Origin: Telmatactis stephensoni
Taxonomy: Eukaryota; Cnidaria; Anthozoa; Actiniaria; Isophelliidae
Direction: 5' to 3'
Length of the DNA stretch: 64,000 nt
Assembly (NCBI GenBank): GCA_029948255.1
Contig: JALIZF010001870.1
Span: forward strand, 948,501-1,012,500
The notes beneath the pieces were generated by a model. It ran no database searches. It was not told the DNA's origin and saw only the letters and a list, made by a program, of their open reading frames with translations. Both the position numbers and the translations under genes were made by a program. Below are positions 45,201-64,000 of the stretch, piece after piece (position 1 is the first letter of the stretch; the number at the start of each line of letters is the position of its first letter).

Positions 45201-48005
45201 ACAAATGGTGCGCGTGTCAAACGGACGAACCTAAAAGAGCGGGAAAGTGGATTACCTCAATCGAAAGACCGAGTTTTTCGGAACGTTCCCATCAGAATGA
45301 CTCACACCGTTTGTTTTCCAACCGGAATTTCCGGTTTTTCCGGTTAAATGGTAAGCGCCCCCATTCTAATTGGAACAGGCCCTTACTCGGGGATAACCAT
45401 CGCTAGAGGAAAGATAGAATGAAACTCTGATGAATACTTTTATTTCCTTAGGTTCACAGTCAGTGCTGACATATGCTACTTCTCATGGTTCTGTGTGTGG
45501 CTGGGATTTACGCTCAGCTAACATGGCCTGGAAGCTTGTCAACGATCCATCTAAAGGTATTTGTATAATAACTTGTATATTAAGCGCGCTTACTGATTGG
45601 TCGAGAACCGTGTGCGATTACAGGTACACATGCATATAGCTGACGTCATTCGACTCTTACGCGCAGCTCTGATTGGTTGAAGTGTTTCGATGAATATTTT
45701 ATAAAACAAATAGATTCCATTTTCCATTTTTCTTCCAGGTTTAATCACTTCATTTGTAGTTGATCCATGTCACTGTTGGCTGGTCGTTGGTACAAGTACA
45801 GGAAACATGGTTTGTTGGGATTTAAGATTTCAGTTACCCATAACAAGCCTTGCACATCCTACAGGTTCGTTTAGTCGAAGTAAATTGTGTCTTCACTTCA
45901 CACCGTATACCTCGCCATACCCTTCCCCTGTTGTTTGCAAATCCCCAGTATCTCGAATTCAAACCCATTCAGTTCCTGGAATTTTTTCCCGGTGAATTAT
46001 TATTGGTCATTTCGCCCGGCTAGCTATTCGAACATAATTTGGCTTCCCCTTCGGAGTTTGGTATATAGCGGGGTTCTTATAAGTTGCGATTTTTTTGTAG
46101 GTGCAAGAATCCGTCGTCTAGCCACACATCCCTTAGAGCAATCATGGGTAGTTTCTGCAGTCCAAGGGAACAACGAAGTTAATATTTGGGACTTGGAGAC
46201 TGGTTCCAGAAGACAAACATTATGGGCTAGTAACACACCACCCCTTTCACAAACTCAGGTATAGCAACAACTTGACCTTGTATTTTGGGTGGAAATGGGT
46301 TCAACTTTCTCTGGGCTATGGGTACAAGGATGAAAGCCAGAACACTCACTACAGGGGGAAACAGTTGTATCTGGGAAAAGCATTTTCGGGTGCACAGGGA
46401 TCCCATTTACTATTTCATAAGTACCGAGATTTACTCACAGTGAAATATATCCTGTATAAAACGTTACGTACAACAGTGGACTTGGTCGCATCGAATAATA
46501 CACGAGTCGTTGCAGAAGTGTTTACGTATGACTGGGAAAACGGCATGGTCACGGCACCGCACGGTTACGGCAATGTTTTTATAGGCATTGCGGTACTGTC
46601 ACGGTATGGCGCAATCCGTTTCACACTCATACGAAATCTGCTCTAGTGACCGTGCCCCGTTACACTACGACAGCTTTTAACGCAATAATACGCGAAAAAT
46701 AGGCGACTTAGATAACACGTGAACTCGTCTCGTCCAAGACGCGACTTGGCGAGTAACAGCAGTCCAAGTGTTTGCGTCTTGATTAAAAGGTGTCATTAAT
46801 ATGGAAAGTTCACGTCTTAGGAAAGACGCCTCTTATTTTCACTGGTATAGATGTGCGGTAATACGAGCAACATATCGTGCAACTTGTCGCGCAACATTGT
46901 TACAAGTTGTAGAGCGATGTTATTACTGTATTACCGCCCCACGCGCAACTTGTCACGCAACAAAAATCGATGTTGCAGGTTGAGGCAACTTGATTTTTGT
47001 CGCATGACAAGTTGCACGTTTAAAAGTCCACAGTGTAGCAACATATATATCACGAAACGTGACTTCAACGGAAATGAAGGAAACCGGAAGCGTCACGCAG
47101 TGTCTTCACAGGCAGGCTACAACCAGCCATGAGAAAACTGTTTGGGCGTACCTACGTAACGCCTCTTGCCCCAACTCTTTCGCAAAAGGGTAACCTTTAC
47201 CGACATTTTTTTAAACATTTCCAATTATTTTTCCTAGGTATCACCACATGCTGTCCACGCCCTGTACTCTAGCTTACCAGACACCAGTCCATACATCATT
47301 ACAGCAGGCTCAGATAGACGCATTAGACTATGGGACTTAGCTTTCCCTGAACACTCACAGATGGTGGCTGGGGCAGCTACTGATAATCTGAACAATGTCG
47401 TACTGCAATACAAGTAAGTCTTAAAACCATCCTTAATATAACAGGTAACAGGGACCACAGAGCACCTTGAAAAGTTGGGAGCTAGCTTTTGAAAATCACT
47501 TAAACTACCCAGTCAAAAAAAAGTTTCAAACAAAACATTTGACTAGGTAGCATCGAAAGTAGAGGGGGAACATTTGACTAGGTAGCACAGAAAGTAGGGA
47601 GGGGGGACTATAGGAGTAGGGTGATCATAATGGAGGGCTTTTATTGGAACATAAGATCAGGAGTTATTAATGAGTGAGAACACTAAGTAATCAATAAGAA
47701 CTTATCAATAACTATACCCTAGTCTGTAGAGGGATTAAGATCACAGGAAGATAGTCATACAAAGATTATTATGTATGCATTCAATTTCATCCCTTAGGTC
47801 ACGATTGATAGATGGTACAGAGGTTTTCCAGGAAATCTACTGCAAGCCACGGCAGGGTTCCATACATGAGGACATGCCTAGAAGGGGCCCAGAACAGCCC
47901 CCTGTGGGACACCACGAGTGCATCAATGATTTAATTGTATCAAAGTCCCCACAGAACTTCATTGTAACAGCTGGGAGGAATGGAGTTGTAAAAATATGGA
48001 AATAA
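30235..48005 (+). CDS. PIK3R4: Phosphoinositide 3-kinase regulatory subunit 4 / VPS15 (29 coding exons)
   Basis: VPS15 is the pseudokinase scaffold that joins VPS34 and Beclin-1 on endosomes and autophagosomes to make PI3P. Exons: 30235-30326, 32534-32578, 32995-33195, 33324-33408, 34028-34357, 34975-35101, 35365-35440, 35667-35763, 36837-36919, 37277-37556, 37791-37953, 38285-38581, 38993-39127, 39692-39829, 40245-40336, 40900-41085, 41268-41483, 41753-41890, 42851-43076, 43413-43476, 43572-43631, 44044-44174, 44449-44533, 44796-44902, 45452-45556, 45739-45864, 46101-46258, 47238-47413, 47798-48005. The start [14 protein letters not shown] carries the Gly2 myristoylation signal. HGDIKTEN (about residue 144) and LLTDIASF replace the HRD and DFG motifs. 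The HEAT region runs from about exon 10 to 16 ([20 protein letters not shown]). WD40 repeats fill exons 21-29 and end in VVKIWK. About 1,408 residues, against roughly 1,358 in human. Frame breaks in exon 5 and at the exon 16/17 junction are described separately. AATAAA overlaps the stop codon. Confidence 0.96.
30655..31263. repeat. Composite foldback element, CTGATTGGTCGAGAACC family
   Basis: Starts with CTCTGATTGGTCGAGAACC and TTCTGATTGGTTAAAATG. The centre is a strong inverted repeat (TATACAATTGGTTTATGGTGG and GACTCGTCACTTGCA-type words, about 30963-31128), and the right end is TTTCTGATTGGCTATATTTT. The left 130 bp recurs at 45.6 kb. It lies in VPS15 intron 1. Confidence 0.65.
31264..32025 (+). 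mobile_element. LINE 3' fragment in VPS15 intron 1
   Basis: The open frame at 31276-31473 ([20 protein letters not shown], then [14 protein letters not shown]) matches the end of non-LTR retrotransposon ORF2 proteins. It is followed by about 550 bp of non-coding 3' sequence that ends in an A/T-rich tail near 32025. It is 5'-truncated, lies in the sense orientation of VPS15 and abuts a foldback element on its left. Confidence 0.75.
32608..32860. repeat. CTGT/CTGC tetranucleotide microsatellite in VPS15 intron 2
   Basis: Interrupted (CTGT)n, (CTGC)n and (CGGT)n repeats fill most of the intron, from 30 bp after exon 2 to about 130 bp before exon 3. Confidence 0.9.
33676..33718. repeat. (CAT)n microsatellite in VPS15 intron 4
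   Basis: About thirteen CAT/ATC units with two interruptions. Confidence 0.9.
34243..34285 (+). other. PIK3R4: Frame discontinuity inside VPS15 exon 5
   Basis: Upstream codons read through [12 protein letters not shown] in one frame, which ends at TAG (34283-34285). The conserved continuation ([19 protein letters not shown], then CVIAELF in the next exon) is in the +1 frame, which is itself blocked by a TGA just before this interval. One base is extra, or two are missing, within about 40 bp. A GT...AG stretch of exactly 34 nt ending at 34285 would restore frame if spliced, but that is shorter than usual animal introns. An assembly indel is the simplest reading. Confidence 0.8.
34806..34933. 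repeat. Perfect 53-bp hairpin in VPS15 intron 5
   Basis: Arms 34806-34858 and 34881-34933 are exact reverse complements (left arm begins ACATGTACATGTTGAATATC), with a 22-nt loop. The right arm ends 41 bp before exon 6, in the branch-point region. Confidence 0.9.
35442..35644. repeat. Perfect 38-bp inverted repeat starting in the VPS15 exon 7 splice donor
   Basis: Arms 35442-35479 (TAAGAGCTCATGAATTTCCC...) and 35607-35644 are exact reverse complements. The left arm begins at the T of the donor GT, so the donor lies at the base of the possible hairpin. The right arm ends 22 bp before exon 8. Confidence 0.9.
36000..36760 (+). repeat. Degenerate minisatellite in VPS15 intron 8
   Basis: About thirty diverged copies of a unit near 22-26 bp with the words GTGTCCACCTTAG, GGGAGGTGTCC and TAGAGGGGTGATCACC fill most of intron 8. 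Confidence 0.75.
37693..37719. repeat. (GTGA)n microsatellite in VPS15 intron 10
   Basis: Six to seven GTGA units. Confidence 0.9.
39498..39599. repeat. Inverted-repeat element, TTTCGTATG family, copy 3 (left-truncated)
   Basis: Shares the core GGCAGGAATTTTGAATGTT and the end TTTCACACTCATACGAAAA with the other copies. It lies in VPS15 intron 13. Confidence 0.7.
39905..40105. repeat. CCATGGAGGGAATTGG repeat, copy 2
   Basis: Same order of blocks as at 7.0 kb, including ACCATGGAGGGAATTGGAAA, TTACAGAGTTTGT and TTGAACTACACA. It fills half of VPS15 intron 14. Confidence 0.7.
40505..40675. repeat. GCCTCCTCCGCAGGC inverted-repeat element in VPS15 intron 15
   Basis: TAGCCTCCTCCGCAGGC on the left pairs with GCCTGTGGAGGAGGCTA on the right. 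Inside, CTTGGGTTTCCTTTGTAA pairs with TTACAAAGGAAGCCCAAG. Confidence 0.75.
41084..41268 (+). other. PIK3R4: Phase mismatch between VPS15 exons 16 and 17
   Basis: Exon 16 ends KLHRAKA plus AG at a GTACTT donor, leaving phase 2. The only good acceptor (TTTCCAG, 41261-41267) opens exon 17 in phase 0 ([11 protein letters not shown]). One base is missing across the junction. Options are a weak phase-0 donor downstream (AAG/GTGCTT near 41130, adding about 15 residues), or a one-base error. Together with the exon 5 break, the total coding length returns to a multiple of three. Confidence 0.6.
42212..42400. repeat. CTACGTCTACACTAATTC repeat, copy in VPS15 intron 18
   Basis: Shares CTAC-TC-ACACTAAT, GCATCTTTCCCCTACGTTTT and CTGTTTTAGTGGGGAC words with the sequence at about 13750-13860, which has CCGTTTTAGTGTGAACGG. 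It is probably a MITE of about 150 bp. Confidence 0.55.
42416..42600. repeat. TIR element GAGTTTCTTGAAAGAGCCG in VPS15 intron 18
   Basis: The left end GAGTTTCTTGAAAGAGCCGA, then TAACTTTACGGGCCC, pairs with the right end read in reverse (CCGTTTCTCAAAAGACCCGA, then TAATTTTACGAGGCC). Length is about 185 bp. Confidence 0.65.
43675..43870 (-). mobile_element. Degenerate LINE reverse-transcriptase remnant in VPS15 intron 21
   Basis: On the minus strand the sequence reads GIPQG, then after a one-base shift TILGPF, which is the conserved RT block. Weaker similarity to the preceding RT region (a helix ending in ...SFL, several stops) lies upstream. It is a short, frame-broken remnant antisense to VPS15. 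Confidence 0.5.
45118..45363. repeat. GGGGGTGCTTACCATTTAA inverted-repeat element in VPS15 intron 24
   Basis: The left end GGGGGTGCTTACCATTTAAA pairs with the right end GGTTAAATGGTAAGCGCCCCC. Length is about 246 bp, with CCAATC...GGTTGGAAA next to the ends. Confidence 0.75.
45588..45730. repeat. CTGATTGGTCGAGAACC family copy abutting a VPS15 splice acceptor
   Basis: Shares CTGATTGGTCGAGAACCGTG and ATAAAACAAATAGATTCCAT with the copy in intron 1. It ends in the polypyrimidine tract of the acceptor at 45738, so exon 26 follows within about 10 bp. Confidence 0.7.
46513..46644. repeat. Inverted-repeat element, TTTCGTATG family, copy 4
   Basis: Runs from GTTTACGTATGACTGGGAAAACGG to CACTCATACGAAATCTGCTCT and carries the CACGGTTACGGCAATGTTTTTATAGG core. 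It lies in VPS15 intron 27. Confidence 0.75.
46846..47040. repeat. GCAACTTGT-type inverted-repeat element, copy 3
   Basis: Runs from GTGCGGTAATACGAGCAACA through GCAACTTGTCGCGCAACA and TATTACCGCCCCACGCGCAAC to GACAAGTTGCACG. It lies in VPS15 intron 27. Confidence 0.65.
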
Positions 48006-49343: not shown

Positions 49344-50103
49344 CAGGGCATCTGACGTAATGCGGCAAAAAAAGTAAAATTATGCAAAATTTCAGACCAA
49401 ATTGTGCGGCAAAGATGATTGATTATGCGGCAAAAAGGACTGATTATGCGGCAAATTATGCAATCTTTTTTTTATATGTTGATAAGTTTTAGGGGTAAAA
49501 ACATTTTATTTGCATTTTTTATAAGGCGTAAGGAATATTTAGAATTGAAACAAAGCATGAAAAATAATTTTTGAATAGTAGATAATCAATATTTTTGTTT
49601 TTAATTTCACTACAAGATGATCTTAATACTGTCATATGCATAATTATCAATCTTAACTAGAAATTCATCCATTTTCGATTTTTTTCACTGTAATTTACTT
49701 AGGGCATAGAGAAAAGCATGTTTACTATAAATATATATGTTGGCAATGCTGATTGGATCATTGACAGAAAGGAATTGTTCGATTTGAACCAATAGCAAAT
49801 GGCGTTAGAACAAAACTAGTGCCAGTCTCTTTGCTCTCCAATGCAAGTGACTCCTTGAAGATGGGTGAAAAATCATTCGACTCTGGCCTGTTTTCGTAGA
49901 CTTTTCGCTAGTTTTCACGAGCGTATTTACATTAAAATGGTTTGTATCTACATATGTCTTAAGTATTAGTGACATTTCATTTGATTTTAGTAAAAAAATA
50001 TGAACTTTTTGGCAATTTATGCGATTTTTGGTGATTGTGCGATTTTATGCGATTTTAGGTCAATTGTGCGAAATCGCATAATCGCGTTATATCAGATACC
50101 CTG
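49344..50103. mobile_element. Non-autonomous DNA transposon with TIRs and 6-bp target-site duplication
   Basis: Termini are CAGGGCATCTGACGTAATGCG on the left and, inverted, CAGGGTATCTGATATAACGCG on the right. The six bases TGAATG flank both sides (49338-49343 and 50104-50109). Subterminal regions are built of repeated TGCGGCAAA (left) and TGCGATTTT (right) words. There is no transposase frame in its 760 bp. It lies between VPS15 and the TDP-43 gene. Confidence 0.75.
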
Positions 50104-50431
50104 TGAATGAGAAACAACCAATGCTAGAAATATAGACAGTTATTAAGAATTTTTCCCAAGTACTCACAAAAGTTAATCTTTGGAATCTTCATTTCAAATA
50201 ATGTATTTCTTGAAAGAGATACATTCACTTACTATTGATACCACACTAGGTTGTGCAACCTTCCTTGCAAGAGCAAATTTAAAGCAACACATTCAACAGA
50301 ATGCAAGTAGATTCTGTACAATACATGTATCTAAAAAAGAAGAAAGAAAGATATTAGAAAGATAAATTGACTGCCTGTAGCTGAAAATTAGAAAATCCCC
50401 ATCATTAATCAGTGAGTTCCCTAAGGATCAG

Positions 50432-50594
50432 CCTGGGTAGATTTAGGGGAGGAGTGTAGGGGTGTGCATACCCTCTCCTGAGGTGAACCATGAATCCTTT
50501 TTTTCAATATTTTTCCAAAAATATCCCTCTTGGCTGTTTTCAATTTATAGATAGGTGCACCCCCTCCTGAAGATAATCCTGGATCCGCCCCTGC
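50432..50594. repeat. GGATTTAGGGGAGG-type MITE, copy 1
   Basis: Starts TAGATTTAGGGGAGGAG and ends GAAGATAATCCTGGATCCGC. The interior TTTTTCAATATTTTTCCAAAAATATC is shared with the copy 0.6 kb downstream. Confidence 0.75.
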
Positions 50595-51048
50595 TCTTGT
50601 TAATTATTCTCCAGGCACATGGCAAATTCAATCAGTGGCTGTGAATCATAACTTTGTTAGGGTTTTGCCTGGCTGTCCTTGGGAAACTGAAACCAAGTTT
50701 GATAATAGACATCTTGGTCCAGGTTGTTTGAAAGCAGGTTAGCACATGACCCAGGGTTAAGAAAACCATTGATTTTAACCTTGGGTTAGCACTAACCACT
50801 TTGGAACAACTGTGCTCAGTAGTCTTGACCAGGGGTCACATCAAGATGCCTTCTAGTTTAAAATCTCAATGAACCACCTGATATTTATTACCTGCACTGA
50901 ATACTTGGGTTGATTCACTTGACTTTCTCCTGGATACATTTAAGTGCATTATTCTTCCCTCTATTTACTCCTCTAACAAAAATCAAACAAGATCACAGTG
51001 AGGTTCTATTTAATATCAATTACATATAATTTACTGTATCCCTTCAGG

Positions 51049-51196
51049 GGTGGATTTAGGGGAGGGGTGCGTACCCCTCCTGAGATGACTTTGAGTCCTT
51101 TTTTCTCAATGTTTTTTTCCAAAAATATCCTCTCGCCCGTTTCCAACTTATAGATAGTGCACCCCCTCCTGAAGATAATCCTGGATCCACCCCCGC
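51049..51196. repeat. GGATTTAGGGGAGG-type MITE, copy 2
   Basis: Starts GGGGTGGATTTAGGGG and ends CCTGGATCCACCCC, with CACCCCCTCCTGAAGATAAT inside. It is a direct-orientation copy of the element at 50.4 kb. Confidence 0.75.
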
Positions 51197-52566
51197 TCTT
51201 GTTAATTCTTCAGGATCAACACCCATTTTAAAATACAAATTCAAAGATTAAGAAAATGATTTTCAATGTTTACCCAAAGATGACTAAATTCTGAGAAACA
51301 GTAGGGGATTGCAATACTTTTCATTCCTCTCATGACCCTGCCTTACAAGGAAGACTACATACTTTCTACATTGTATGGTACTTACAGCTCTTCATATCAT
51401 GAACAGTCTACTGACTTTTAGGAATTCACGCCTCTCGGACTCCTTGTTTCTCCTTCACTCCTCGTCCATACCATACATGTTGGTCAACACTCGTTGGCTA
51501 TCTCTCCTTGACTTCACAAATTGTTCTCGAGATACATATACCGTAACTTCTACACTGCACATTGTTGTTCTCAAGTACCCTGTTCATTCTGGCAAAGTAC
51601 TCTCCTCTCCAGTCAGGTTATTGCTGTTGGTAATTGTATAGTCTAAAAAAAGTCCTTGATTCTGACCACACTGTTTTGGCTTGCTTACAAGTAGTCACTC
51701 AAGTGACTGATTCAATGTTCAGACGATTCTGTAATCTGCAGTTGAAAAACCTACAGTACTAGTACATGCGTAGGTAGGCCAGTACTTTCCTCTCCAGTCA
51801 ACTGATAACTTGCCATTTGTCTAAATTAGTTCTAACATCTCATCACCCTTTTCAATGTTGGATGCAAACTTTTCAAACAAGTTTTAAAACATGTCTCTCA
51901 ATGAAGTGCTCAGGTGGTATTAAATCTCATACCATCATTATGCCGACACTAATACTCTACATTTTCACTTACTAGTAACTTGGCAACTGCTTGCAGAAAA
52001 GTGTAAAACTTTGATGCTTACCACCACATTCAAAAATAACAGGCAATTTTTTCCCTTTTGTTTTTGTCTCCCCCTTTTCACTTCATATTTTATTTGTTTG
52101 TTTTTTTCTTTTCCAAGCAAACTTCCTCAATTGACTCTGCATGCAAAACAACTCAGAATACAGACCCACAATGTTTTATTTCATTCACTTCACAGTCATA
52201 CATATATCTTTCACTAAATACATCGAAAGGGTTATTTTCAAAGTCTCTTTTCTACAAATCTGTTACTAACATGAAAAGTCTTGAAGCTAAATGGTCATAA
52301 GTCACTCTCAGACACATGGAAAGTTTACTTTCTCTAATGAAATGCATAAAGCTATCATAAAGGACCATAAACTACTCTTTTTTATTTTCAGCAAAGGAAT
52401 ACAATCATCTAGATTCCAAAATGCCATTTGAAAACTCCTTAAACATAGGGAATCAAGTTTTAAATGTACCAATAAAAACAGTTAAAATTAGCAACATTTA
52501 AGGCAAGGAAGAAGTTATATACAGTTTTCATTCATTTGACTATATCATAGTTACAGTGATAGTTGT

Positions 52567-55500
52567 TCACTTTCTAGGTGTAGTGGTCTGGGTGGCCCCT
52601 CTTGACCATGTCTTGTTTGGTGCCCCTGATCCCATCATGCCTTGCATACCGGCAGGCATCATATTCATCATATTGTAAGCTGATGCGGCATTGGAACTAT
52701 AGTTACTACCACCACCCCCCTGTCGAACACCCCACCCTGAATTCCACATGTTATAACCCATACCGGTAGGGTAACCTGAAGATGCCGCTGCCCGCATGGA
52801 GTTAGCCTTTGGTTCAGCAAACTTAACATTAAGAATTTGGTCACGAAGACGATGGTTTTGTTGAATGACACTTTGTGCTGCCTCACCAGATGAAAATGTT
52901 ACGAAACCAAAGTTCCTGTTGGGTTTTGGGATGTAGACATCAGTGAGTTCTCCAAATTGACTGAAGTAATCTTGAAGTTCTTTCTCTGAATTTCCTTCTG
53001 GTAGGCGACCAACAAAAAGTTTTTTGGGAACATTCATCTCCTCCTGAAATAATGAGAATTTTGTTGAAATTTGCCAAAGATTATAGCTTTTTAATGAAAC
53101 TGTAAGTAAAACGTCCCACCCATGTGCAATAATAAAAATGAGTCCTTTTTTGTCAAATGTGCATCAGAAGTCAAATAATTACTGCCAAAACTGCGCATGC
53201 ATGTGCCTATTTTGCCAAAGCAAGACCTTACTTTGTATAGCAACCAGCAATGGTACATGTATATTGCAGTATACCCTTAGTCTTATGAGAAAAAAGGAAA
53301 AAAAAACTATTCTAAGATGCATGAATTGTGGGTGTTACCCTTGTTCTTGGAAGCCTGACTTCACAGATTCTGTTTTGGATTCGATGGGACATTGACAGTA
53401 CATTTTTGGCATGTTCATCATCCAGGAATCTAACAAAACCAAACCCCCTTGATTTTTTGGTCAAGGGATCAACTTTAACCTGCAAGGATAAAGATGAATA
53501 TATTAGGAATCACTGTCATCATTAAGCACACTTTTTATCATCACTATCATCTATCATTATCAATGTTAGAGTTGATAACTTTGCCCCCTAAGATGCCACA
53601 GTTTGTTCACAAGTTCCCTAGTTCCTTTGAAACTTTCAAACTTCATTCATTGAACAATTAAATTTAGAATTCAAATATCTCCTGAAATTTCATCTAAAAA
53701 CTATGAAATTTTTGTTTGTTTGTGGATGCATTTTATCATCATCATTAAAAGCAGTTTGTAACCATTTTTAGAGGAAATTTCAGGAAATATTTGAAATCTG
53801 AATGTAAACACATTACTCTTCACTGAATGAAGTTCCAAATGAACTTGGGAACTTGCAAACAAATTTCGGAATCTTAGGAAGCAAAATTTTGTGACATCAA
53901 ACTGTAATACAGCAGTTTTAATACAACTGTGAAAATGGTACTATCAGCGAACTAATTTTCACAGTCATATGAAATCTAATTCTATATGCAGGTGTGTCCA
54001 AATGCAATGGACACACCTGATCACACACTATTTTCATTTTATAAAATACTTGAGATATAACGCACACGCTGATTGGCTGGTTACCATGTTTATATCAGAG
54101 GACAGAGACATGGCTCGTTAAAAAACGTCGAAAGTATTTTATAAAAGCAATAATATAAAACGATCGCTTATGTCTCTGTTCTGTGATATAGACACTCTGG
54201 AAGATGTAGAGCATTTGAAAAGCAAGAGAAACACTCGGCTACACCTCGTGTTCCTAAGCTTGCTTTTCTCTTGCTCTATATCTTCCATTGTGTTTATATT
54301 ACAGAACAGAGACATGCGCGTGCGTTTTATATTGCTTAATGAGAGAATAAAATATTATGCTCAGCTATTAGAAATGGACATCACTAGTTGTCATCTTGAA
54401 TAAGGAAAACCAAGTACAATATAACTTAACGTTGAAATTGTGTAAAAAAATGGAGGTTTTGTGCATTTGAAGCACATTTATGGTGTTGTTAACATTTGCT
54501 TCACTTATTAAATCATTTATGAGCATTGGGCTTTCTTAATAAACACTGCCCCAAAATAAGCACTGCATCAGAATCCCAAAAAACTAAATAAGCGTCGTGG
54601 CACTAAAAAGAGTAAATATGGTACCTACAGTATACATAGTCTCTCATTTTTAACATCTTCACTGTATACATGGACATATATATAATATACCTCAATGGAC
54701 ACATGCCGAGCACTGACCACTTCTCAAGTTCCCGCTAGACCTACCTCACAATAATCCACTTCTCCAAACTGGCTAAAGTAATCTTTCATTTCTGGTTCAG
54801 TGGTTCTATATGGTAGTCCAAGTACTATAAGATCACCTATTCCTTCTACTTTGGTTATTTTGGTCTCTGGCTCTTTTCCTGTTGGTGATTCTTCTATCTT
54901 TCTTTTACTTGCAGTATCTAGATTAAAGAATCATACAAGTTTTTAAATAGATGATGGAAACTAAAATCATCACAGTTGCAGCATCTAAATATAATAATCA
55001 TACAAGTTTCATATAACAAATCATGTAAGTATAGTTTGGAAACTACATGTAAAAATCAAAATGGTTTGAAATTCAGGCCAAAAAATAATATTTTCAAACC
55101 ACAGCATGGACATGTATCAAGGTAAGTAAGTTGAGAATATTTTACTCCAAACAAACAATCTATAAAAAGACAGAGTACATTATTTTGTCTCTTCTGAAGA
55201 TTCTTTTTTCAAATGACAAATCTTTAATACTCTGAGATAGTTTGCTAGAACAAAACCTGCCAGTAGCTTATATAAATACTTCTTTCCTAAAATAAAACAC
55301 TTCTACAAATGAACAACAGGTTCAAAAAGAAAACTCACCAATTTTACTTGGAACGACCATGAACAAAATACTACCCCATCCTTCGTCAAACGGCGGGTAC
55401 AGAGTATTTTCTGCCAGCCGTACTCCTCGCAGTGATTGCGAATCAAGGCTACGATATCTCAGTCCACAGGCACCAGGAAATTGTCCTTGTATGTTTGACA

Positions 55501-55588
55501 ACAGAAGTGTGCCGTCTGGTTCGGTTGGGATTTCGATGGCTTGGTCTGGGCAATTTTCATCTTCGACGACTCGCACGTATTGCGACAT
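52567..55588 (-). CDS. TARDBP: TDP-43 homologue (TAR DNA-binding protein), RNA-binding
   Basis: TDP-43 is a nuclear RNA-binding protein acting in splicing and transcript stability. Exons in order are 55588-55339, 54917-54745, 53479-53339 and 53043-52567, with phases 1, 0, 0 fitting. The result is about 346 residues, against 414 in human. Residues 1-83 form the ubiquitin-like N-terminal oligomerisation domain ([23 protein letters not shown]). A basic KRK at 88-90 sits where the nuclear localisation signal is expected. RRM1 has LIVLGLP (113-119) and RGFGFVRF (152-159). RRM2 has KLFVGRL (196-202) and NFGFVTF (232-238). The C-terminal tail, from about 275, is only some 70 residues and contains [16 protein letters not shown] start at MSQY because the family starts MSxYxRV and the upstream in-frame codon is GTG. 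An AATAAA on this strand lies at about 52386-52381. Confidence 0.95.
53577..53897. repeat. Foldback element in the TDP-43 intron between exons 2 and 3
   Basis: The left arm (TTTGCCCCCTAAGATGCC, CAAGTTCCCTAGTTCCTTTG, TTCATTCA) pairs imperfectly with the right arm (TGAATGAAGTTCCAAATGAA, CTTGGGAACTTGCAAAC, ATCTTAGGAAGCAAAATT) around a centre near 53735. Confidence 0.65.
54036..54341. repeat. Foldback element, ATGTCTCTGT family, copy 2 (inverted)
   Basis: Same modules as the copy at 3.2 kb in opposite order: GCTGATTGGCTGG, then ATGTTTATATCAGAGGACAG, a TCTGGAAGATGTAGAGCA stem and AGAACAGAGACATGCGCG. It lies in the TDP-43 gene between exons 2 and 3. Confidence 0.8.
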
Positions 55589-55874
55589 GTTGGAAGGCAC
55601 TTCACTCCGGTATCAGCAGTTATTTTATGCTTAACTTTCACAAATAAGCAGACGTTTATCTTAGCTAGCTCTCAGTAGCAAAACTGTTGGTATAAAAGAG
55701 TCTTGTGGTCGATAAAATCGAGGAAATTTAGGTCAAACCGTGGAAAACAATATGGCCGACACGTGAAGATCTGCGCCCGTGATGCATTGCGGTCACAGGA
55801 TACAAAGGAAGCCCAACACAAACTACAGCCGCGCCTAGCCTGCTTTATCTAAGCGACGCAAGAAAAATAGCTCT

Positions 55875-56008
55875 GGGGCCGGTTGTACGAAGGGTGAATA
55901 GCGCTATCCAGCGGATAAATCCTTATCCAGCGGATAAAATCTATACAAAATCTATACTGTGGATAACTCTTATCCAGTGGATAACTTTATCCAACCTTCG
56001 TACAACCG
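55875..56008. repeat. MITE-like element, CCGGTTGTACGAAG family, copy 2 (inverted)
   Basis: The same element in the opposite orientation, GGGGCCGGTTGTACGAAGG to CCTTCGTACAACCG, about 134 bp. It lies about 0.3 kb upstream of the TDP-43 start codon. Confidence 0.8.
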
Positions 56009-56492
56009 AATTATAAGCCATTGGCCTCTACTGTCTAATATTATTATGCCTTTCATTGCACTAGACAAAATATACAAAATCATTTATGTAAATTAGTATT
56101 AAAGCTTTTTTAATTTCATGATGCAATCCAACTTCCAAGCCGTTTTTAGCTTTTAAGTTATTTTTGGAAGTTGGGACCAGCTAAACGTTCAACTTTTCTT
56201 TTAGATAACTAGGTAATAGTAAGACTGAGGGTATTAAAATGTTGTTCTTGTAGACATTAGGGCTGATTAGAAAAGCACATGAGTCTCCCGAAAGAAATAC
56301 ATGTATGTCTCGTCAATTAATTTTCGCGCAAAAAAATGCGTAAAAAATGCGCAAAAATTAGTAGAAAACACTGAGTAACTGAAGTAAAAGTTAGTCGTTA
56401 AATATACCAAATTAGGATCTGCACATTGGAAATGTAGTGAATCAATTCTATTCAAAGGATACCGATCAGGAGACGGATATGAAAAATTACCA

Positions 56493-57732
56493 AGTATTTT
56501 AGAATGATGTCATCTATTCAACCCAATGGTTTTCGGTGATAAATTGCAAAAAATAGAGAATTTTTTAGCCTTCTCAGGCTCAGAACTTTTTTTCTTTTTT
56601 TTAAATCCCCTTTTTTAACATTTTTTGATTCAAATATTTAGGCTTTTTACCAAGTAATTATTGTTTACTTTTTACCAGTTAAAAAGATCGAAAATTAATC
56701 TACGTATTTCGTTTCCTGCTTTACTTCTTTAATTTATGCGATCAAAAATTTCTTAAATGGCTGAGCATAAAGAGTGAGATATTTTTACGCCGCCTTAGAA
56801 CAGCAGAACAGTTAGAACTTTTTCTTAACAGGCAACAGGTAGCCGGCCTAATAACAGAGAGTCTTTGTAGTAGTCTCCTTTCTTTGTTTTCTTGTATTTG
56901 TCCTGAACGATTTTTGTTTCAGTTGTTTCGTAAGCTAGAAATTTAAGTTCCAAAACAAACACAAAACTGGAAAGTGTTGAGTCAACATTGCTAATGACTG
57001 CTAGAGTGAATGACTAAAAGGGATCAATTTTGAAACAAACCACGATTTGCGCACGCTGTTTGTAACACCATGGCAACATCTTTGTTAATTACCTATGTAA
57101 CGTACGCTCAAAACCCTGATGATGGCCAACATGGCCGAAAGCTTGGTATATTAAAAGATCAAAAATTTAACGCAGATGATACAATTTTGGTCCCTTTTTA
57201 ACATATGCCTGCATACAAAGAAATTTTGAACTCACGATTTATTTGTTCTACGGTCAAGTTATAACTAATATTTAATGTTATCCAATTCAAATTTGAAAGC
57301 ATTCTTTATTTGTGTATGGTTTGTAAGTTTCGTTTGCACAAGGGTATTTGAGATTAAATAGGAACTCTTAAATACGCATCATATCTAATGATGCCAAAAC
57401 ACATCAGTCGCGAATTAAAATGTCGTGAACGATAAAATAGAGCTATTGGAGGCTCTAGATCTAGTGAATTGTAATTTCATTATGATGTATATCGCTAAGC
57501 TCAGAGCAGTTCCATTTTTAATAGCAATTGTTAATGCCTAACATGAATTTTCGGGTCTGAATGCAAAACAAATCTTATGATCAGGTGTTCATAGCTGTAT
57601 CAATAGTAAAATGTCAAGAACATGCATCAAACACTTTTTCTCTCACTATATACTATACATCTTTCAGCCGATTGCTCATTCACTAATAAAGCTATAAAAG
57701 ACGAAACATCTGAAGATTAAAGCTATGTAATT
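56493..57732. repeat. Segmental direct duplication, copy A
   Basis: From AGTATTTTAGAATGATGTCA to GATTAAAGCTATGTAA; the same order of sequence recurs at 58096-59592. Shared landmarks are GAGCATAAAGAGTGAGATAT, ACAGGCAACAGGTAGCCGGC, CACATCAGTCGCGAATTAAA and GAAACATCTGAAGATTAAAG. Copy A holds about 190 bp (57035-57230, including GATGATGGCCAACATGGCCG) that copy B lacks. No coding frame is supported. Confidence 0.85.
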
Positions 57733-58095
57733 TGCTTGAAGAATTTTCAAATCATTTCATTTCACCAATTTATTTAATTACCAAGCATGGCGTCTCAGTT
57801 TTTCATTGAAACCGAAAAATGTTATCAAAAGCGTCATATACAGTAAATAACGTGTGCCCAGTCGAAAACGGGACATAACAGTTCTAAATGAGGTCTGTTG
57901 ATTTGAAGACTTGTTGGTATTTGGTATAATAGATGATGTCGTGATCAAGGAGGTAGTCGTGTATAAATAGTCTGTAAATAATTGCACAATTCAACCTCTG
58001 GTGTAATCGCATTATTGTTAATAAACTATCTATTTCTACTCTAGATCTTTTTGTACATTGCCAATGACGATTTCCTTGATCATTTTCTAGTCATC

Positions 58096-59592
58096 AGTAT
58101 TTTAGAATGATGTCATCTATTAATTCAACCCTATGGTTTTTGGTGCCGATAAATTGCAAAAAATACAGAATTTTTTGGCATGGATTTATCACGTACTTCA
58201 GTTATCGTTGCATTACTTAAACTAGGGAAAAATCAGTTTTCAATTTCGAATAATTTTCATCCAAGTTATCTTCTAAGCGAGTCAATTCGATGTCTGAGCT
58301 TCTCTATTTTTTATTGTTTTATTCGTATTCTTTCTTTTATTATTATTTTGTTATTAAGACTAGTAACAGCTGGTCAACCTTACCGACATGAGAATCTTTT
58401 TAGTTGAATCTTTATGGCTAGCTGAGCATAAAGAGTGAGATATTTTTACGCCGCCTAAGAACTTTTTCTTAACAGGCAACAGGTAGCCGGCCTAATACCA
58501 GCACTCTGCTCTTTGTAGTAGTCTCGTTTCTTTGTTTTCTTGTATTTGTCCTGAACGATTTTTTGTTCCAGTTGTTTCGTAAGCTAGAAATTTAAGTTCC
58601 AAAAACAAACACAAAACCGTTGAGTCAACATAGCTAATGACTGCTAGAGTGAATGACTAAAAGGGATCAATTTTGAAACAACCCCGGCACGATCTATTTG
58701 TTCTACGGTCAAGTTACAACTAATATTTAATGTTATCCAATTCAAATTTGAAAGCATTCTTTATTTGACCTCAATGAGCTTTTATCAGGTATTTTTAAAT
58801 TCGTAAAACAGAAAAAGAATTGCCATAGCTGGAAAGAGCATGTTAAAATTAGGAAGACAGTGAAGTTTGAAGGAATTAAATCCAAAACTCGCAAGAATAT
58901 GAATTTTTAAAAAGTATGACATTTTAAAAAAACCTTTGCTGGTAGGCATCACTTGCCTACCAGCAAATGTTTCATATAAAATTTCGATTTCGGAAAATTC
59001 ATATCTTCGTGAGCCAGTTTGAAAGTTACTTCATTCAAACTTCGATCAACGTTTTGCTAATTTTGACATGCTCTTTCCAGCTATGGTAATTATATTTCTC
59101 AGTACTGTGACTTTTGGAATTACATGATAAAAGCTCATTATACATATATGGTCTGCAACTTTCGTTTGCACATCAAGGTTATTTGAGATTAAATGAGGAA
59201 CTCTGAAATACGCATCATATGCTAATGATGCCAAAACACATCAGTCGCGAATTAAAATGTCGTGAACGATAAAATAGAGCTATTGGAGGCTTTAGATTTA
59301 ATGAAGTGTAATGTAATTATGATGTACATCGCTAAGCTCAGAGCAGTTCCATTTTTTAATAGCAATTAATATACCATGATATACTGTTAATGCCTAACAT
59401 GAATTTTGGGGTCTGAGTACAAAAATACAAAACAAATCTTATGATTGGGTGTTCATAGCTCTATCAATAGTGAAATGTCAAGAACATGCATCAACCACAT
59501 TTTCTCTCTTACTATATACATCTTTCAGCCGATTGTCCATATTCACTAATAAAGCTATAAAACACGAAACATCTGAAGATTAAAGCTATGTA
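58096..59592. repeat. Segmental direct duplication, copy B
   Basis: Matches copy A along its length with small substitutions and indels, and carries an extra foldback element of about 370 bp at 58768-59140. It ends 370 bp before the start codon of the secreted-protein gene. Confidence 0.85.
58768..59140. mobile_element. Foldback element inserted in copy B of the segmental duplication
   Basis: Ends are ATGAGCTTTTATCA and TGATAAAAGCTCAT; internal arms include TTGCCATAGCTGGAAAGAGC with its complement, TTTGCTGGTAGGCA and TGCCTACCAGCAAA at the centre. Copy A has an uninterrupted site (TTCTTTATTTGTGTATGG), so this is a real insertion. Confidence 0.85.
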
Positions 59593-59960
59593 AGTGTAAG
59601 TTTCCGCCTTGTGTTAAGGTTCGACAAATATCACGTTCCTACTTATATTTAAATTTCATCCAAGAAGCTTTTTGAAAGGACTCTTGTCCAGCTAGCAACC
59701 AAACTATCCAGTAATAGCTTAATATTTACTAATTAAAAGTAATGCAAACGTTAACACTTAAGTCTCTACTTCAAATATTTTCATCAAACAACAATCAAAA
59801 ATGGGATACTTAACTTCGTCTTCAGTAACACGAATTTTCGTGATTTGAAAAATCACGTAAAGCAGAGCAAATCTCAGCTCTCAGATCATTCTAGCTCAAG
59901 CACTCAGTGGAGCTGGAGATTCATCTTTTCGTCGAGCCTTAAAAGTTGCAGATTTCAAGC

Positions 59961-61778
59961 ATGAAGGTTGACTTGAAGTTGATCATTTTGGTACTATTTT
60001 TCGTGGTTTTGGTTAGTGATGTGAATGGAATCTTTGGCGGAAGACGGTAAGTACAACAAACTTTTGGGTTTTCGCGGATTTTCACCTCAATTGCGCGCTG
60101 ATTGGCTGAGAAGGATGTGGTCTCACAGATTTAGAACTAAAACAATTCGAAGAGAAAAAAAGTCTCAAGTTCAAAATTTCGAAGATGTTTTCAAGGCATT
60201 CTACTAATGGTATTCAAATGTCTTCATGATTTGGCACCATCATATCTAAGCGATCTCATTGTCACATACAAGCCCAGCCGAACATTACGTTCAAGCTCTA
60301 AAAACTACTTGGTTGTCCCGCACTCCAGAACAAGAGGATATGGAGATCGAGCTTTTTGTGTGCATGGCCCAACATTATGGAACAGTCTGCCCGATGAATT
60401 GAGAGCTGAGAACAATTTTGTAAAATTTAAAAAACAATTGAAGACATATTTATTTTAGTATTAACACTCTACTGAAGGTCATGAACAAGAAAATTGAATT
60501 CTAACTATATTTAAATTTTTTATATACATGCACATCTTTAGACATCATATAGAAATGGAAGATCTGATATACGTCAATGTATATCATATCTTCCATTTGT
60601 CTACCATCTTTATTTTTCTGTGAATTGTAATTTATATAACACAGCGCCACTGAACTTTAGGATTTTGGCGCTATATAAGTCATTTTATTATTATTATTAT
60701 TATTATTATTCTGGAGTCCAAACACGCCTCAACTCGCACTAACTCGAAGTACCAAAAGTATATTTTTTGCTTAACTTGTCTTAACTCGCCTTAGTTAGCA
60801 TAGGATTTCATAAAAGTAAACGGGGTGGGGCCATTTTTCCTTTGAATTCGCCTGCAGCCGAAGTGGTAGCTGGAGAGGCCGATTTCAGTACTTAACCTCA
60901 ATTGCGCGTTGAGTTGACTGAAATGCAAGTCATCTGATTCTCGAAATTTTGAATCTCGCAGATTTGGAACAAAATCGGAGATAAACAAAGTCGCAAGTTA
61001 AAAAAGGTGGAAACTGATTATTCCTTGTTGAAGTAATTTGATAATGAAAACTGTAATAATTTCCAGGTTTTCAAAGGCAAGCTTAGATTTTTCATGAAAA
61101 GCTGAAACTGTTCATTTTAATTATGGCTGTGAAGTTTTGATCGAGTCGAATTTTCCTTGAAAAGCTTGTCTAGGTTTCCTCAAGGCTTGCTCAACAGTTA
61201 AACGTCGAAGTACTGAAAAAAGGCTTTCTTGAGATTCCATAAAGGTAATTAAATACAGAATATATTAAACATTGCTGGCAGTTTAATTCTCAAAGACACT
61301 CGCAAAGTTCAGTCGGGCGAATGAAAAGTTTGAGCAGGAAATCGGTGCCGCGCGTCATTGACGGGTCCAAACTCCCGCCAAAAACACCAGCCAAAACTAA
61401 TAAATATATATTTTTCACCATGACTTCAACCTCCAAATTAATTTATCCACTCTTTTGTTTTCGACTTAATTTGAAGTGAAGAGCAAATGTTTCAATTTTT
61501 CAATGAAAGTTTACTTGATGCACTTGTTGATATGCAGGCGTTACCAAGGCTATTATGGCAAGAAGCTATCATTGACGTTGAATGCTCCTAAGTAAGTTTG
61601 TCTTTTGTAGTGTTCGTGTTCATATTGGTAAATTTTAGAGAAAGTTTACCTCAAAAATAAATAGATCTTATTAGACAGTATAATTACCAGAAGTACTATT
61701 TGATAATCGTTAATGTTCATTTCTTTCTTCAGTTCATTTTTATCCTTTGTCCTTTTTCTTTCTTTCTTTCTTTCTTTC

Positions 61779-61809
<31 letters not shown>

Positions 61810-61941
61810 CCTTCCGGCCTTGCTTTTAAAAGGAAAAGACTAAAACTTATTTAGTTCATGTTTTTGTTGATCTTCCTTCCTTCCTTTACTTGCTTTGTTT
61901 GTTTCTTTCCTTCTTTCCTTCTCTTTCTTTCTTTCTTTCCT

Positions 61942-62010
<69 letters not shown>

Positions 62011-62021
62011 CTTTCTTCCAT

Positions 62022-62065
<44 letters not shown>

Positions 62066-62517
62066 TCAGAAAAGAAAAAGCCTAAAAAATATTTACTTGA
62101 TGCTTCTGTTTATCTGCAGGCGCGGCTATTATGGGAGGTAAGATTCTGTCTTTTCTAGTTGATTACTTCTGCTGAGACAACTAGTTTTATTGAAATATAC
62201 ATTTTTTCAGTGGCGGCAGAAGGCGATCATCGACCTTGAATTCTCCACAGTAAGTTTGTATTTTATAGTAATAAATTTTACAGAAAGTTTACCTCTCAAA
62301 TTACAGTAATTTATTTGTTAATCGTTAATTCATATTAAAGTTAATTTCTTTCTTCAGTTCATTTTCTCCTTTTCCTTTCTTTTTTTTTTCCCTTCTTTGT
62401 TTTTGAAATGAAACGACTACATGAGATCATGTTTTTGTTGATCTTCCTTCCTTCCTTTACTTGCTTTGTTTGTTTCTTTCCTTCTTTCCTTTCCTTTCCT
62501 TTCTTTCTTTCTTTCTT

Positions 62518-62552
<35 letters not shown>

Positions 62553-63742
62553 GTACGTCTGTCTTTTAAAAATGAAAGCCTAAAAATTATTTACTTGATG
62601 CTTCTGTTGATTTACAGGCGTGGCTATTATGGGAGGTAAGTTCGTGTCTTTTCCAGTTGATTACTTCTGCTGAGACAGGTATTGAAATATAATTTTTTTG
62701 ACAGGAGGCGATCAAAGACGTTGAATTCTCCTAAGTAAGTTTGTCTTTTATAGCAATAAATTTTACAGAATGTTTACCTCTATAACTACAGTATTTTTTT
62801 TTGTTAATCGTTAGTATTATGGTCTCTTGTCGTTATATTTTATATTAATTTTAAGTTCTTTCTTCGTTTCATTTTTATCCTTTGTCCTTTTTCTTTCTTT
62901 CTTCTTTTCCTTCCTTGCTTTTTAAAGGAAAAGACTCAAAATCTGTCTTTCCCTCTGTCTTTCTTTCTTTCTATCTTCCTTCCTTCCTTCCTTCCCTATT
63001 TTTCCTTATTTGTCTTTGAAAGGAAAAGACAGAAACGACTAAAACTTATTTAGGTCATGCTTCTATTGATCGTCCTTCCTTCGTTCCTTTTCCTTCTTTC
63101 TCTTTTTCTTTCTTTCTTTCTTTCTTTCCTTTTTTTTTTTTTTTGTTTCCTTCTTTCTTTTAGAAAGCTAGGAAAAGGTTAAAAATCTGTTTACTTCATC
63201 GGTTTGCTTGTGCTTTTGATCTGCAGGCGTTACTATTATGGCGGGTATTATGGAAAGTAAGTTCACGTCTTTTTCACTGGTTACTTTTACAGAAACAGGT
63301 TTTATTGAAATATACATTTTTTTGTCAGGAAGCAGTTTCTGGCGGATGCTCCTACTACAGCACCTTCTAAGTAAGTTTGTCTTTTAACGATTTAAATTTT
63401 ACAGAAGGTTTACCTCAAAAATAACAGTATTCTATTTGTTAATCGTTAATTTATATTAATGTTAATTTCTTTCATTTCTTTTTTTCCCTTGTCCTTCCCC
63501 CTTTTTTTTCCTTCTTTGTTTTTAAAAAGAAAAGACAGAAAAGACTAAAACATATTTAGTTCATATTTCTGTTGATCTTCCTTCCTTCCTTTACTTGCTT
63601 TGTTTGTTTTTCCCTCTTTCCTTTTTGTTAGTTTTTTCTTTCTTTCCTTCATTCTTTTTGGAAAAGAAAAGACTAAAAATTATACCTATTAAATTTAATT
63701 CATGTTTCTGTTGATCTGCAGGGGCTACTACTATTCAGGGAA
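59961..63742 (+). CDS. Secreted basic Tyr/Gly-rich repeat protein, 5' part (nine small exons), continues past the window
   Basis: Exon 1 (59961-60046) encodes a clear signal peptide (MKVDLKLIILVLFFVVLVSD, then VNG) followed by IFGGRR. Eight more exons follow: 61538-61591, 62120-62137, 62211-62249, 62618-62635, 62705-62734, 63227-63256, 63329-63370, 63722-63742. Every one is a multiple of three in length and every junction is phase 2, with GTAAG-type donors. Two kinds alternate: RGYYG-type exons (18-30 nt, 21 nt in the last) and linker exons (RRRSSTLNSPQ, RRSKTLNSPK, KQFLADAPTTAPSK). The 54-nt exon 2 holds both types fused (YQGYYGKK plus LSLTLNAPK). No stop is reached by 63742. The mature chain is strongly basic. 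G-KK and G-RRR after YY resemble amidation and dibasic processing signals, so a peptide precursor is possible; an extracellular matrix or antimicrobial protein is the alternative. I do not recognise a named family. Confidence 0.6.
60205..60711 (+). mobile_element. LINE 3' end (CR1/L2-like) in intron 1 of the secreted-protein gene
   Basis: Residues MVFKCLHDLAPSYLSDLI, then RTRGYGDRAFC, PTLWNSLPDELRAE and FKKQLKTYLF are the typical C-terminus of a non-LTR retrotransposon reverse-transcriptase protein. It is followed by a short 3' UTR ending GGCGCTATATAAGTC and a (TTA)n tail at about 60684-60710. The copy is 5'-truncated and same-sense as the host gene. Confidence 0.85.
61865..62070. repeat. (TTTC)n microsatellite in intron 2 of the secreted-protein gene
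   Basis: Pyrimidine tetranucleotide array of about 200 bp between exons 2 and 3. Related CT-rich tracts occupy the later introns at 61755-61810, 62440-62555, 62895-63000, 63080-63160 and 63590-63660. Confidence 0.95.
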
Positions 63743-63839
63743 GTAAGTTCGTCTCTTCTTTTTCATTGGTTACTTCCACAGAAAAATTAATTTATTTATA
63801 ATTAGTTCGACGTTCATATGTTTCTGTTGATCATTTTTC

Positions 63840-64000
63840 CTTACTTGCTTACTTGCCTACTTCCTTCCTCCTTCCTTGCTTGCTTGCTTCCTTTTCTTTC
63901 TTTCTTTCGATTCTTTTTCTCTCTCTTTCTTTCTTTCGATACTTTCTTTCTTTCTTTCTTTCGATACTTTCTTTCTTTCTTTCTTTCGATACTTTCTTTC
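63840..64000. repeat. CT-rich microsatellite at the window end
   Basis: CTTCCTTGCTTGC repeats change into TTTC units with a recurrent higher-order unit (TTTCGATAC) at 63926, 63960 and 63984. The last stretch after exon 9 shows no further exon. Confidence 0.9.

Follow-up and report, generated by a model that had tools for sequence, protein, structure and literature searches.

Within a 64,000-nucleotide (nt) window of the sea anemone Telmatactis stephensoni (contig JALIZF010001870.1, positions 948,501 to 1,012,500; the window is the whole stretch analyzed, and positions given below are counted from its first base), we found a plus-strand gene model in which a signal-peptide-like exon is followed by a ladder of eight very short exons. 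The best single reading of this locus, to which we assign a probability of about 0.42, is that it encodes a secreted, highly basic precursor that would be cut into short peptides ending in an amidated Tyr-Tyr pair (YY-amides), possibly of the [AS]PxRGYY-amide type. Two kinds of unit make up the ladder, an A unit ([R]GYYG) and a B unit (a spacer ending in [AS]P).

Spliced together, the nine exons (Table 1) yield an open frame of 112 amino acids, MKVDLKLIILVLFFVVLVSDVNG-IFGGRRRYQGYYGKKLSLTLNAPKRGYYGSGGRRRSSTLNSPQRGYYGRRRSKTLNSPKRYYYGGYYGKKQFLADAPTTAPSKGYYYSG, in which the hyphen marks the presumed signal cleavage point, placed by eye. An in-frame TAA lies at 59940, 21 nt upstream of the ATG. GTAAG is present at nine of nine donors, and each of the eight exons that follow exon 1 is entered in phase 2 and has a length divisible by three, so that the signal-peptide exon and the eight phase-2 exons of 18–54 nt proposed in the first-pass annotation are borne out. 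The alternation of RGYYG- and STLNSP-type units that it described holds from exon 3 onward, whereas exon 2 contains both types and exon 8 is STLNSP-type by position only; its exon 4, open from the acceptor at 62211, also has an acceptor at 62220, likewise in frame. The eight exons are all open together in no phase but phase 2. Exons 2 and 6 are open in that phase alone; each of the other six can also be read through in one or both of the remaining phases, and four of the eight are open in all three. Neither a stop codon nor the last exon was seen before the window ends at 64000, leaving the gene incomplete in the window, and 63743-64000 contained no additional AG...GTRAG exon candidate within 120 nt. 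The gene model is probably real. Retention of any of the introns that begin at the nine GTAAG phase-2 donors (60047 to 63743) would place an in-frame TAA directly after the joint codon; as read from the sequence, retention after a Gly-ending A exon would give a protein terminating in Gly-Arg or Gly-Lys. Intron 1 also holds an open fragment of 105 codons (60141-60458, plus strand) with no Pfam match, which we take to resemble the C-terminal end of a reverse transcriptase from a retrotransposon without long terminal repeats (non-LTR).

Table 1. Exons and short introns of the gene model, in positions of the window.
Feature	Position	Strand	Remark
Exon 1, signal-peptide-like MKVDLKLIILVLFFVVLVSDVNG then IFGGR	59961..60046	+	ends in phase 2; signal peptide and cleavage point by eye
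Exon 2, 54 nt, fused A and B unit RYQGYYGKKLSLTLNAP, without internal intron	61538..61591	+	open in phase 2 only
Exon 3, 18 nt, A-type RGYYG	62120..62137	+	splice model and scan
Exon 4, 39 nt, B-type (S)GGRRRSSTLNSP	62211..62249	+	alternative acceptor gives 62220-62249, 30 nt, and restores YYG-RRR
Exon 5, 18 nt, A-type RGYYG	62618..62635	+	splice model and scan
Exon 6, 30 nt, B-type RRSKTLNSP	62705..62734	+	open in phase 2 only
Exon 7, 30 nt, A-type RYYYGGYYG	63227..63256	+	splice model and scan
Exon 8, 42 nt, B position, KQFLADAPTTAPS	63329..63370	+	STLNSP-type by position only
Exon 9, 21 nt, A-type GYYYSG	63722..63742	+	next exon would fall beyond the window
Short A-B introns	62138..62210 (73 nt), 62636-62704 (69 nt), 63257-63328 (72 nt)	+	mutually homologous

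A scan for a pyrimidine-rich YAG, then a stretch of 15–60 nt that is open in phase 2 and a multiple of three in length, then GTAAG, returned seven candidates in the 2.26-kb ladder (61500-63760), against a mean of 0.107 and a maximum of 2 in 300 first-order Markov shuffles. At the threshold used (9 pyrimidines of 15), exon 2 and the 62211 acceptor, each with 8, were missed. Other 2.26-kb stretches, taken in steps of 100 bases on either strand, held at most three candidates, several of which were overlapping variants of one site. When the length rule was dropped the ladder gave nine candidates, seven with lengths that are multiples of three, and the tripeptide YYG was found six times in its three plus-strand frames, compared with 0.034 in 500 shuffles. 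Control scans of the ladder in phases 0 and 1 returned five candidates each, as more than one phase is open in the shorter exons; the openness of short exons alone therefore says little. Since the exon copies are duplicates of one another, the scan and YYG counts also overstate the number of independent events, and we rejected counting the exons as independent evidence given that introns and exons were duplicated together.

This duplication can be read from the non-coding sequence. The short A-B introns are pairwise identical at 57 of 67, 53 of 69 and 51 of 68 positions, the 73 nt downstream of exon 9 match them at 41–47 of 66–69 positions, and the flanks 3' of the B exons match one another at 53–76 of 75–90 positions. 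The repetition of introns along with exons shows that the ladder arose by tandem duplication of an exon-intron unit with two exons (A and B), from which the common phase and length follow rather than standing as independent facts. Exon 2 is in register with spliced exons 5 and 6 across their joint, except for two extra codons in its A part, and likewise with spliced exons 3 and 4 if exon 4 begins at 62220. It is thus the intronless equivalent of the spliced pairs, and therefore lends independent support to removal of the short introns as drawn. The exon 4 acceptor homologous to that of exon 6 is this same 62220, nine bases 3' of 62211 and in frame; it yields RGYYGRRRSSTLNSP, and 62211 yields RGYYGSGGRRRSSTLNSP (hereafter the alternative and reference exon 4, respectively). 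There are hints of selection on the units, in that the Gly after YY is encoded by GGC, GGG, GGG and GGA in the four complete units, and so is kept over three codons despite third-base change, and in that the exon lengths are all multiples of three, which is not true of all the short introns (73, 69 and 72 nt). TTTC microsatellites also occur within introns of the ladder gene.

After the presumed signal peptide, the 89 residues predicted with the reference exon 4 include 15 Y, 15 G, 20 K+R and 1 D (isoelectric point, pI, 10.5), a composition that suggests disorder, and the 112-residue model lacks Cys. This part contains five G[KR][KR] sites, whereas shuffles that preserve composition average 0.73 (p 1e-4), or 0.67 (p 5e-5) when the alternative exon 4 is used. 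Seven basic runs are present, preceded by G in five cases and by P in two. YYG stands before at least two basic residues three times with the reference exon 4 or four times with the alternative, two of these sites being GKK, which is outside the published pattern discussed below. The Gly plus dibasic sites highlighted in the first-pass annotation are therefore in excess of the shuffled expectation, with the qualification that the splice consensus itself partly accounts for one basic residue at a phase-2 joint, AG joined to G writing R and AA joined to G writing K. The second basic residue of the joint dibasics sits inside the following exon and is not explained in this way.

Because every internal exon is a multiple of three and is entered and left in phase 2, exon gain, loss or skipping would alter copy number and peptide mix with the frame intact. 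When exons 2–8 were skipped in silico in every combination, with exons 1 and 9 kept, all 128 combinations remained open, in agreement with the earlier proposal that units can be removed without a frame break. With the alternative exon 4, 512 of the 576 joints so enumerated carried R or K and the other 64 carried Q. The reference exon 4 gave K or R at 464 joints, Q at 64, S at 32 and N at 16. No joint into exon 9 is dibasic, the next residue there being G.

Under the YY-amide reading, the protein would enter the secretory pathway, a prohormone convertase would cleave at G-[KR]n sites, a carboxypeptidase would strip the basic residues, and PAM would turn the Gly into the amide, freeing the YY-amides. 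If internal KR were also cut, the products would include YQGYY-amide, GYY-amide and YYYGGYY-amide; in-silico cuts wherever at least two basic residues stand together gave YQGYYG, GYYG-type and YYYGGYYG fragments, with SSTLNSPQRGYYG staying whole because its QR is monobasic. If instead KR and QR were spared and the N-terminus trimmed to Q or X-P, the predicted products would be pQGYY-amide, APKRGYY-amide (with the 62220 acceptor), SPQRGYY-amide and SPKRYYYGGYY-amide. With the alternative exon 4, in-silico cuts made only after G plus basic residues, followed by such trimming, gave QGYYG, APKRGYYG, SPQRGYYG and SPKRYYYGGYYG as the forms to be amidated; the reference exon 4 turned APKRGYYG into APKRGYYGSGG. 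The fit to X-P trimming is consistent with this processing scheme but is not a test of it.

Several observations weigh against a YY-amide precursor. RRR, KR, QR, KR and K directly precede the YY units, five in all, with YQ intervening in the first. Published sea-anemone precursors, as described in the portions of those papers considered, instead have acidic or other non-basic residues ahead of the peptide (PMC9545775, PMC7523074), a rule that this gene does not follow. The rule could still fit if KR were spared and trimming stopped at Q or X-P, as trimming to these residues has been proposed for cnidarian peptides (PMC7523074). A full dibasic was found at only 388 of the 576 enumerated joints with the alternative exon 4 and at 324 with the reference exon 4. 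Net charge after the signal peptide is +19 with a single acidic residue, features no less fitting for an antimicrobial or adhesive protein. Nor does exon conservation appear clearly above intron conservation: in the closest pair (exons 3/4 with the alternative acceptor vs. exons 5/6), 7 of 48 coding positions differ, as do 10 of 67 in the short intron and 15 of 89 in the flank downstream. The proportion of synonymous differences (pS) exceeds that of nonsynonymous differences (pN) in only four of six unit pairs, in a comparison that used the alternative exon 4 and left out two codons of unit 2 as well as the extra codons and the final joint codon of unit 7/8. The ratio of nonsynonymous to synonymous substitution rates (dN/dS) was accordingly rejected as proof of selection, the sites being too few and the pairs mixed.

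Homology searches add to these points. The spliced model had no protein match at an expectation value (E) ≤ 1 among proteins of about 62–198 amino acids (8000 candidates sharing most words scored), nor at E ≤ 10 among proteins of about 133–421 amino acids (5524 candidates scored). In Pfam, no family scored above 11 bits for the spliced model; solved structures gave only one chance-level match (ribosomal uL3, E 0.57), and Rfam returned nothing at gathering threshold in 50000-64000. A control search with the neighboring TDP-43-like open reading frame (ORF) gave 12 matches, including Exaiptasia diaphana, and the searched database therefore holds cnidarian proteins; this control ORF is a single exon and does not prove that the database covers spliced transcripts of the source animal.

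The same basic, Tyr-rich composition can be read in other ways. In a structural or adhesive secreted protein, the YY pairs (possibly DOPA or dityrosine) beside Lys or Arg would act as sticky or cross-link units separated by TLNSP spacers. Mussel foot protein 3 has Tyr beside Lys/Arg, and tropoelastin is built from small in-frame exons that alternate between two domain types, a layout shared by the two alternating unit types here, although this gene shows no hydrophobic elastomer repeats, is far shorter and carries dibasic sites. More generally, elastomeric proteins have been characterized, in the part of the source considered, as alternating elastomeric domains and cross-linking elements (PMC3291537). 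Against this, the protein is short as visible (at least 112 amino acids), has frequent dibasic sites, and has neither Cys nor an acid-rich mineral-binding stretch, and no matching cnidarian protein was present among the literature matches listed, judged by title and the start of the abstract; we consider a structural role unlikely but a strong rival of the YY-amide reading. Also unlikely, in our estimate, though a similarly strong rival, is a cationic Gly/Tyr-rich antimicrobial peptide or precursor resembling nematode NLP-27 to NLP-34 and the caenacins, in which basic YYG repeats would bind microbial membranes and copy number would vary by exon duplication. The unit seen here, YYG-KK/RRR plus TLNSP, presumably differs from the nematode NLP/caenacin repeats. 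What is shared is a secreted, Gly- and Tyr-rich product, the residue counts and pI given above being in keeping with nematode NLP/CNC peptides described as glycine- and tyrosine-rich in the excerpted text (PMC2453101), which also treats NLP-27 to NLP-34 (except NLP-32) as neuropeptide-like in name only. The sole Pfam trace was to a fungus-induced protein model (E = 0.56, 11 bits vs. a cut-off of 24) over residues 10–35, mostly signal peptide, and the database searches, which involved no direct comparison, found no nematode NLP/CNC homology at E ≤ 1 or E ≤ 10. The dense dibasic sites would moreover fragment a long peptide if it passed convertases.

We think it very unlikely that the ladder is not spliced as modeled and represents the decaying or non-coding remains of a repeated region. 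Such a remnant would agree with the absence of a protein match among the candidates scored, with a similar level of conservation in the introns and exons of the closest pair, with the intronic TTTC microsatellites and with the openness of half of the exons in all three phases. It sits poorly with seven exon candidates open in one phase, with exons 2 and 6 open in that phase only, and with exon lengths that are all multiples of three beside short introns of 69, 72 and 73 nt.

A secreted YY-amide precursor remains our preferred reading. The closest counterpart in gene layout, by analogy, is the schistosome microexon gene (MEG). The first-pass annotation knew of no named family with this layout, a statement that passes over the schistosome MEGs. 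In the portions of the reports considered, the long 5' exon of these genes encodes a signal peptide, the center consists mostly of exons <36 bp and the products are small and secreted; 26 of 33 microexons in MEGs 26–32 are symmetric, MEGs appear to make splice variants, and MEG-26 genes are reported to show internal duplication of an exon-length pattern (PMC4671649, PMC5825161). Here, five of eight exons are <36 nt (six of eight with the alternative exon 4) and eight of eight are symmetric, while the 5' exon comprises 86 coding nt plus untranslated region and the 3' exon lies beyond the window. The likeness was drawn from layout descriptions, and it crosses what is presumed to be a different phylum; the present gene differs in its repeats of two unit types with mostly basic joints. 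Overall, the earlier interpretation as a peptide precursor is partly supported.

Among cnidarian peptides, the preprohormone criteria published in the sections considered are at least three GKR, GRR or GR sites, at least three highly similar preceding peptides and a signal peptide (PMC7523074). The gene has three GR-type and two GKK sites after the signal peptide, hence at least three Gly plus basic sites; its signal peptide was recognized by eye, and the remaining criterion hinges on whether GKK is counted. It shares with amidated cnidarian precursors such as those of Antho-RFamide and X1PRX2amide a signal peptide, short repeats followed by Gly plus basic residues, and possible Q or X-P protection, but here basic residues precede the units, separate microexons build them, and acidic residues are almost lacking. 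We did not file the gene in the cnidarian neuropeptide class. The nearest Tyr-amide is one predicted in a corallimorpharian, pQQWTRYamide (in the part of PMC7523074 considered). No YY-amide was found by string search (YYG, GYY, YYa and Yamide, not all of them in every text) in the main texts of the cnidarian neuropeptide papers considered, and no cnidarian repeat ladder or YY-amide precursor was present among the matches listed from open-access full text, some judged by title. In placozoans, a peptide named YYamide exists (PMC6737977), likened here by name only on the basis of a shared amidated YY C-terminus, and a precursor with basic residues flanking its units is described in the portion of the source considered (PMC5612019). 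Short-exon secreted peptide genes are already known in cnidarians from descriptions of the SA8 toxin genes of sea anemones, which in the excerpted text have 3–5 microexons, a pro-cleavage site and cysteines (PMC10210398); the present 112-residue model is free of Cys and forms a repeat ladder of nine exons or more, though its unseen 3' part could differ.

Elsewhere in the window, ORFs of a VPS15/PIK3R4-like gene lie at 37135-38614 (plus strand), with Pfam VPS15-like_hel at E 1.2e-8 (above cut-off) and 1.5e-3 (below cut-off). A weak beta-propeller trace (E 0.04, below cut-off) was seen at 45887-46264, and ORFs at 41139 and 46272 matched no Pfam family. The control ORF (52567-53037, minus strand) is a single exon of 156 amino acids with one RRM, 66% identical to Exaiptasia TDP-43 and 67–97% identical to six proteins of 155–163 amino acids, which suggests a short conserved TDP-43-like paralogue. 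Just upstream of the ladder gene, sequence pieces within 57233-59508 are tandemly duplicated at a spacing of 1.46–1.86 kb and are 92–98% identical. A 120-bp minisatellite in four copies (96% matches), with long ORFs on both strands, occupies 17922-18402.

The symmetric-microexon ladder is a layout already known for schistosome secreted proteins. A bolder reading, which we consider distinctly unlikely, is that of a cnidarian microexon gene whose exon-intron layout itself encodes peptide processing: phase-2 joints would write Lys or Arg, A exons would supply YY-Gly and B exons the X-P-protected N-terminus, and splice combinations would stay readable with the majority of their basic joints retained, giving a combinatorial YY-amide system analogous to, and independent of, the schistosome MEGs. 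If the gene is spliced and processed as modeled, a ladder of symmetric microexons would set the copy number and peptide mix of a precursor. The predicted YY-amides are then concrete targets for mass spectrometry, and the tuning of peptide output by exon skipping would become testable.

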